A stretch of 64,000 bases of DNA from assembly GCF_023074835.1 (NCBI RefSeq), contig NZ_JALLGW010000002.1, positions 372,001-436,000 of the forward strand, written 5' to 3'. The notes below the pieces were generated by a model that ran no database searches, was not told the origin of the DNA, and worked only from the letters and a program-made list of their open reading frames with translations. The stretch comes from Halomarina salina (GTDB lineage: Archaea; Halobacteriota; Halobacteria; Halobacteriales; Haloarculaceae). Positions 29,171-30,929 of this stretch are shown piece by piece. The stretch's first letter is position 1, and every line of letters starts with the position of its first letter. Position numbers and translations under genes: made by a program.

Positions 29171-29215
29171 GCCGCGACGGTAGTTCGTTCAGAACCGCAC
29201 TGACTCAGCCGAAAG

Positions 29216-29230
29216 ACTCGTGCCGCGAGT
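29216..29230. repeat. Island hairpin repeat R1
   Basis: actcg-tgccg-cgagt, a 5-base-arm hairpin with loop tgccg, 46 bases after the DUF35 stop codon. The same loop and closing arm recur at 30117-30133, 30751-30764, 31906-31922 and 32536-32550. Confidence 0.5.
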
Positions 29231-29347
29231 GTGTCACCGGGATTAGACGTTACTAGATAGAAAGTGTCAATTTCGTGAACAACTTCCATAGTAATGTCAG
29301 CCTTTTACGACCGACCATATCGTCGTTCTACGAGCTATGGGTAGATT

Positions 29348-30052
29348 ATGCGGCTGATAGTCACCGCGTCAGTGACACAACCGACACTACGTCAGGCGCT
29401 TCAAGATGTCCCCTCCACGCGAATCATCATCGAACAAGTGGAGACCGAATACTCTGGAGAGCGAACACTCACCTTCTGGGTCGAATCAGACGACTTCGCG
29501 GCATTTGAAACCGCGATGAGCGACGACCCAACGGTGACCGACGTCGAGTGTCTCACGACGTTCAGCGACCGGCGACTGTATCGGGCAACGCAGGTCGGGG
29601 AGGGACGGGCCAAGAGCCTCTATTCGGCGCTCACAACATCTGGGGGCGACCTTCAGAGTGTGATTGGCACCGCCACAGGGTGGGAGTATCGGGTGGCGTT
29701 TCCGGATAGTGGTGGCTTGTCACGACTCCGAGACATATGCGAAGAGTTCGGCCTCGACTTCACCCTCCTTCAGAAGTACCAACAGACAGTACACCTCGAT
29801 AGAATATCAAGCGCTGCGAATCAGGAGGTTCCTCCTGATCTCGGGTTAACACCCACCCAACGAGAGACGCTACTTCGCGCCGTTGACCAAGGGTACTATG
29901 CCATTCCTCGGGAAATCAGCCTCGTCGAACTCGCCTCCCAGTTGGGTGTATCCGACCAAGCGGTCACCGAACGACTTCGTCGAGCGATTGTCGCCTTGAC
30001 GACGAATGCATTCCTCCTAGCAGAGCAGGAATCGACGCCACACGATGACTAG
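29348..30052 (+). CDS. Bat-like HTH-10 transcriptional regulator
   Basis: 234 aa. Residues about 165-225 form the HTH_10 domain of the bacterio-opsin activator family: LTPTQRETLLRAVDQGYY followed by ELASQLGVSDQAVTERLRRA. The N-terminal 150 residues resemble the Bat-type sensory domain found with it. These regulators are abundant in haloarchaea and often control redox, light or oxygen responses. TATA-like ccatatcg at 29316 is about 30 bases upstream. Codon use and G+C (near 53 %) are lower than flanking genes, consistent with recent acquisition. Confidence 0.83.
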   Translation: MRLIVTASVTQPTLRQALQDVPSTRIIIEQVETEYSGERTLTFWVESDDFAAFETAMSDDPTVTDVECLTTFSDRRLYRATQVGEGRAKSLYSALTTSGGDLQSVIGTATGWEYRVAFPDSGGLSRLRDICEEFGLDFTLLQKYQQTVHLDRISSAANQEVPPDLGLTPTQRETLLRAVDQGYYAIPREISLVELASQLGVSDQAVTERLRRAIVALTTNAFLLAEQESTPHDD

Positions 30053-30133: not shown

Positions 30134-30240
30134 GTTCAGCCGACAGTTCGACAATGAATCCGGAATGGGCAGAGTGTCTGACGTTTGTATCAGATAGCAA
30201 CGGCAAGCAACATACTTTATGGCAGCCATCCGCCAGTGGA

Positions 30241-30385
30241 TAGTGGACTTACTCACACCGCTGCTAACTGCATGGGGACGACAGTGACGGTGGAAGCGGT
30301 TCCCGGGACGCTCCGGGTGAGTGAGTCCGGCCACGCGGCAGCGACCGTGTGCCTCTGACGACCTCGACCTGCTGTCGCGTGGCCC
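30241..30385 (+). ncRNA. Structured RNA-like element, copy A
   Basis: About 145 bases, paralogous to 30511-30658. A TATA-like catactttat (30211-30220) ends about 21 bases before the conserved start. Predicted pairing: P1 30245-30256 with 30317-30328 (12 pairs, one G-U); P2 30257-30262 with 30295-30300 (accgct/agcggt); P3 30302-30306 with 30313-30317 region (cccgg/ccggg); P4 30331-30341 with 30372-30382 (11 pairs, one G-U). Short reading frames in it are not conserved between copies. No known RNA family recognised; function unknown. Confidence 0.6.
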
Positions 30386-30510
30386 TTGCTCTCGACACCG
30401 AGGGTGCCAGAGGGAGAGCGCCTACGAGATATCAATAACGACACATTTGTCAGACGTTTCTATTACTGGAAACTTACACGAGTTTTTATTATCCCTGCGC
30501 TGTCAGTCGA

Positions 30511-30658
30511 TTGTGGACTCGCTCACACCGCTCGCAAGAGGATGGGGACGAGAACGAAGGTGGAAGCGGTTCCCGGCACGCTCCGGGTGAGCGGGTCCAG
30601 CCACGTGACAGCCGACGTGTGCCTCTGACAGCCCGTTTAGTGCTGTCCCGTGGCCTTC
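30511..30658 (+). ncRNA. Structured RNA-like element, copy B
   Basis: Second copy, same order of elements. TATA-like tttttatta (30483-30491) is about 26 bases before the shared start when measured centre to start. P1 is 30515-30526 with 30587-30598, P2 30527-30532 with 30565-30570, P4 30601-30611 with 30643-30653 (one mismatch). In P1 an A-U pair of copy A (30251/30322) is a G-C pair here (30521/30592), a compensatory double change, and two other pairs change between canonical and wobble. This supports selection on RNA structure. Confidence 0.6.
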
Positions 30659-30725: not shown

Positions 30726-30764
30726 GACTCACGCTCTGAGTCTATCGATAGACCTGTGCCGCGT
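30726..30764. repeat. Island repeat R3 with perfect palindrome
   Basis: Contains acgctctgagtctatcgatagac, whose end gtctatcgatagac (30740-30753 region) is a perfect 14-base palindrome, followed by ctgtgccgcg. Nearly identical to 32508-32550. It lies between RNA-like copy B and the hydrolase gene. Confidence 0.55.
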
Positions 30765-30929
30765 GTATATCAAACCGAACGAGGGTCGAGGTAGTAGTCG
30801 GGTTTGTGAACGTCCAACTTTACATCCCTTTCCAGAAACTCATCCGCATCAGCAGAATATGATAACGCGAATAGCTTGGATTTTGACTAAGTATTTATAC
30901 ATACAGGCACCAGATGGTTGGCTGTCATT

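Follow-up and report, generated by a model that had tools for sequence, protein, structure and literature searches.

Units A and B, which lie in tandem in the 64,000-nt stretch of Halomarina salina DNA analysed here (the window), are confirmed as two members of a family of about 16 copies of a structured RNA of about 145 nt, far larger than the pair first noted. These copies form a previously undescribed family of small-RNA genes in this genome, and nearly all of them carry the same conserved loop. Observed for the family were a covarying structure, conservation of the loop across scaffolds, a fixed upstream element and an association with regulator genes.

Structure and copies of the RNA family

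The sequence-only reading had described A and B as paralogous units that share a start and an order of stems. Pairwise alignment gave a common 5′ end, stems and core, and direct reading showed the reported P1 changes from A to B (U-A to U-G, U-G to C-G and A-U to G-C) to be exact, P2 to be accgct/agcggt in both units, and P4 to be present in both. The TATA-like stretches ahead of the two units were also found (Table 1). The single-sequence fold of unit A was better than those of shuffled sequences (z -4.1, 0 of 200), while that of unit B was weaker (z -2.1, 3 of 200).

Table 1. Positions of units A and B, their parts and the adjacent regulator gene in the window
Feature	Position	Strand	Evidence
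BAT/HTH_10 transcription regulator gene, directly upstream of A/B, same strand	29348..30052	+	Pfam PF04967 E 5e-16, PF15915 E 5e-11
Upstream element TGTCTGAC, -67 of unit A	30175..30182	.	
TATA-like box, unit A	30213..30219	+	sequence
RNA unit A (P1, P2, P3, P4; loop GUGCCUCUGACGACC)	30242..30385	+	covariance model R2 142 bits, E 4e-22; fold
P1 arms, unit A	30245-30256/30317-30328		
P4 arms, unit A	30329-30342/30371-30384		
Loop motif GCCTCTGACGACC, unit A	30351-30363		
Upstream element TGTCAGAC, -64 of unit B	30448..30455	.	
TATA-like box, unit B	30483..30492	+	sequence
RNA unit B (P1, P2, P3, P4; loop GUGCCUCUGACAGCC)	30512..30656	+	covariance model R2 153 bits, E 7e-24; fold
P1 arms, unit B	30515-30526/30587-30598		
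P4 arms, unit B (one mismatch)	30600-30612/30642-30654		
Loop motif GCCTCTGACAGCC, unit B	30621..30633	+	17 copies in own genome vs 1 control; order-wide enrichment

BLAST with unit A identified 8 places in the H. salina genome, two of which (C1:2067999 and 2068265) form another tandem pair. A first covariance model, built from 8 copies, detected 14 copies in this genome and 4 in Halomarina rubra at E<=0.01, and no further copies elsewhere among 146 genomes of the same family. With the refined model R2 (E<=0.05), 16 copies were found in H. salina, 5-6 in H. rubra and one weak copy in genome G002; under stricter filters, 392 genomes of the order yielded no full Halomarina-type RNA beyond the genus. 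The homologues in H. salina and H. rubra keep the P1 and P4 pairing on which the first reading depended. The only haloarchaeal match in a pattern scan of genome_contigs was to H. rubra; the rest were bacterial and chance-like, and plasmid BLAST gave no match. The canonical loop was divergent in L074 and L077 and absent from L072 (1501-1641); these three may be decaying paralogs. The copy L073 is located immediately 3′ of a tRNA gene.

As the first reading supposed, no known family was recognised: the window and 20 related loci had no match in Rfam release 15 at the gathering threshold and only one, at chance level, when the threshold was relaxed, and a tRNA/tmRNA scan detected none. The criteria for C/D or H/ACA guide RNAs were not met; paired RUGAUGA/CUGA and a 3′ ACA were not found on reading of alignment A5, and a kink-turn or guide RNA assignment was rejected on reading of the sequences.

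A and B alone provide thin evidence of selection on the RNA, but the further paralogs raise the support far above chance. Across 18 copies, double-sided compensatory changes occurred at 22 of 35 base pairs, compared with 11.2 pairs after shuffling (0 of 500 shuffles reached the observed value), and cells with double-sided changes and pairing kept numbered 59 versus 20 in shuffles. Paired cells amounted to 88.6%, versus 78.5% when shuffled and 32-45% with slid partners. The 18-copy alignment is biased towards the structure, to which it was fitted; in an unfitted MAFFT alignment, 10 double-sided pairs were already present. Five copies held out of the R2 build matched the model, and L078 retained a long P1 in which most bases differ. 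The covariation and the held-out matches bear out the RNA-level selection that had been inferred from two copies and satisfy one of the criteria for a trans-acting sRNA, a conserved structure selected at the RNA level.

The P4 loop and its occurrence in other scaffolds

Conservation is highest in the apical loop of P4 (GYGCCUCUGACARCC), the conserved core of the family, which the first reading overlooked, as it did the upstream element and the adjacent HTH_10 gene described below. The 13-mer GCCTCTGACARCC of the loop occurs 17 times in the H. salina genome (control, 1) and is present in 8/8 Halomarina genomes. In 392 haloarchaeal genomes, about 136 hits were obtained with the 15-mer GTGCCTCTGACARCC and about 11 with a reversed-pattern control. 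At 108 sites the motif was less paired than with shuffled flanks (unpaired fraction 0.58 vs 0.45).

Reading of the motif contexts revealed several sRNA-like scaffolds of different builds, and at least 10 nt of the loop are unchanged between unrelated ones. A widespread single-copy sRNA (signature of the GCCGGGG-UGCCUCUGACAA-CCGGC type) has, in order, a TATA-rich promoter, CGANGGGTGANG, a hairpin GCCGG-[GGUGCCUCUGACAA]-CCGGC and a hairpin with the loop UGCCCGGA; within Halomarina the gene is syntenic, located at C1:2725366 in H. salina, and its 3′ hairpins covary. Another scaffold has CCCGGG...CCCGGG flanking the loop. In G198, a genome from another family, each RNA contains the motif twice, with the first copy in a clear GACUCAG/CUGAGUC hairpin loop, whereas most Halomarina copies carry it once.

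The loop UGCCCGGA is a second conserved hairpin loop in the 3′ part of L251-L270 (the widespread sRNA) and is absent from the Halomarina multicopy type. In one genus of family f17 (L157-L167), a different conserved sRNA-like gene has a motif able to pair with GUCGCAGGC upstream of it, and then a GGGGCGG/CCGCCCU hairpin. Matches in viral contigs were mostly due to chance, in coding-like DNA; only two IMG/VR contigs, L242 (13620-13634) and L243 (3764-3778), look haloviral. In both, a G-rich stretch precedes a GTGGTGCCTCTGACAACC motif in a manner that resembles the haloarchaeal sRNAs, and these are possibly halovirus-encoded copies.

Upstream element and neighbouring HTH_10 genes

The sequence TGTCWGAC was observed upstream of seven Halomarina copies. 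Counted from where P1 begins, it lies at -64 to -67 in six of them (A, B, E, M75, r84, r85) and at -81 in the seventh (J71). Its expected number is 0.0045 per 160 nt, and it is rare elsewhere in about 248 kb of Halomarina flanks. Its occurrence within a 5-nt window in 6 of 23 copies corresponds to a binomial p of about 1e-18 if the copies are independent; since r84/r85 and A/B are related, this value is overstated. The element precedes the TATA box by about 38 nt, a distance at which archaeal activators usually bind. A TATA-like box in most copies, together with the fixed upstream element, fits a promoter, as judged from sequence in the absence of promoter-activity data.

The coding region common to the upstream flanks of A/B, F and r86 is that of a BAT-HTH_10 regulator, and independent scaffolds of other genera also adjoin HTH_10 genes in divergent, convergent or tandem arrangement. 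The H. salina genome contains about 70 HTH_10 domains. Its test set comprised 29 GCCTCTGACA loci from 34/35 sites (control, 5); nine of them lay within 1 kb of an HTH_10 gene versus 0.93 expected, a number reached in none of 20000 simulations. Some of the 29 loci are coding sequence, so true RNA genes probably adjoin HTH_10 genes at a higher rate; no HTH_10 gene lies that close to the other 20 loci, and the link is thus not universal. The association was replicated in G198 (6/6 within 1.5 kb, expected 0.41) and in H. rubra (G007; 4/10 within 1 kb, expected 0.30, p 3e-4), although the p values of the replications are approximate because a few contig extents were estimated and HTH_10 genes are clustered. 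In Halomarina, the widespread single-copy type is instead divergent from a FilR1/HVO_A0261_N regulator. The HTH_10 association is one of neighbourhood and does not establish control.

In L286 and L169 of G198, two motif-bearing segments stand in tandem, each adjoining BAT-HTH_10 genes. The window also contains another dispersed intergenic repeat, roughly TGACTCAGCTGATAGACTTGTGCCGCGTGTGTATCA, at about 29210-29260 and 30730-30775; it recurs, often near the same HTH_10/sRNA loci, in L139, L147 (4206, 3211), L153 (6266), L154 (5837) and L156.

Possible action of the RNAs

With moderate confidence, A and B can be regarded as genes of a haloarchaeal family of regulator-controlled, trans-acting sRNAs that work via the common loop; transcription, HTH_10 control, action in trans and the partner are inferred. 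Each RNA would be transcribed from its own TATA promoter and, in Halomarina, turned on by a regulator at the activator-type element TGTCWGAC; in many loci this regulator is plausibly the neighbouring HTH_10/BAT protein. The P1-P2-P3 domain, with its conserved core GAAGGUGGAAGCG, may serve as the scaffold, and the P4 hairpin would display the nearly invariant loop to one common partner, either target RNAs that contain the complement UGUCAGAGGC or a shared RNA-binding protein. With a single common partner, many regulators responding to different signals would feed one output.

An antisense-seed partner is slightly favoured over a protein. An RNA partner under the seed model would carry UGUCAGAGG. 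Sites with the sequence TGTCAGAGG were few in the examined loci, and the two that coincide with gene starts (ATGTCAGAGGC), where the loop complement UGUCAGAGGC occurs, are insufficient evidence for a target. Bacterial multicopy sRNAs with a common seed include LhrC1-7, Qrr and the cuckoo RNAs. Like these, the present RNAs have several paralogs per genome and the same exposed loop and, as inferred from sequence and gene neighbourhood, would have their own promoters under regulator control; unlike these, they are archaeal, place the loop in unrelated scaffolds and often adjoin HTH_10/BAT genes, and no Hfq dependence or target is known.

Literature searches gave nothing relevant on the motif or on sRNAs beside bacterio-opsin-activator genes. 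Haloferax volcanii sRNA132, s479 and H225.2R are haloarchaeal intergenic sRNAs, and some deletions of such sRNAs give phenotypes (PMC6560208, PMC8155600, PMC3956466); H225.2R, htsf_359 and hts10 are conserved H. volcanii sRNAs (PMC3956466). In the available portions of these papers, none of sRNA132, s479 and H225.2R is described with the present loop or regulator association. The antisense RNA hvo_1211s (PMC13286277) is a different thing from the present family. Haloarchaea have many sRNAs that are poorly conserved and of which few functions are known. Their HTH_10/BAT regulators, mostly of unknown role, number in the dozens (about 50-70 per genome here); a loop motif found order-wide on several RNA scaffolds and linked to regulators ties these two problems together. 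The short handle GCCUCUGACA would allow this class of regulatory RNA to be found, deleted and pulled down in genetically tractable species.

The main rival to the antisense-seed model is that the loop binds a shared RNA-binding protein, which the many copies titrate as CsrB/RsmY do with CsrA in bacteria. CsrB and RsmXYZ are protein-sequestering RNAs, and the present family resembles them in a repeated identical loop motif, multiple genes and regulator control (inferred for Halomarina). Invariance of the loop across unrelated scaffolds, two loops in each G198 RNA, about 16 copies per genome and the absence of an obvious complementary target in the examined loci would all fit such a sponge. It is held with lower confidence than the main reading. 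Against it, a candidate protein is lacking, the motif differs from that of CsrB/RsmXYZ and usually occurs once per RNA, as in most Halomarina copies, and the sponge model does not specially predict an association with transcription regulators. The sequence TCTGACA is common to the loop (CUCUGACAR) and the upstream element (TGTCTGACA), which would allow the RNAs to bind their own DNA-binding regulators; that the loop mimics the DNA operator and the RNAs act as decoys for these or related HTH_10 proteins is given only small weight. If true, such mimicry would constitute an archaeal regulator-RNA feedback class of HTH_10-sRNA pairs.

Readings other than a trans-acting RNA fit the data poorly. The position of the motif upstream of a same-strand HTH_10 gene in L133 and L125 and the tandem arrangement of A and B could suggest a cis-acting leader or riboswitch-like element that governs the next gene; however, downstream genes vary in kind and strand, many copies lie downstream of their nearest gene or converge with it, and the next gene in the window begins about 260 nt past B behind its own AT-rich stretch, which makes a leader very improbable. 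Rated lower still is a non-autonomous, MITE-like mobile element whose hairpins are DNA inverted repeats. Although the copies are dispersed, numerous and rich in hairpins, and some have flanking HTH_10 DNA in common, most share only the RNA and its promoter, the promoter geometry is fixed, and the stems covary while the loops do not change; terminal inverted repeats common to all copies, the criterion for a MITE, were not seen on comparison of the flanks. The least credible reading is a small-protein gene, an open frame of about 28 aa that ends in VCL and a stop codon and overlaps the RNA. This frame, from the GTGGAA core to the TGA in the loop, is intact in B, C, D, F, G, K73 and others but broken in eight copies (E, J71, P78, Q79, r83, r85, r89 and the G002 copy), in line with the initial statement that no protein frame is conserved, and conservation continues beyond the TGA into CAGCC.
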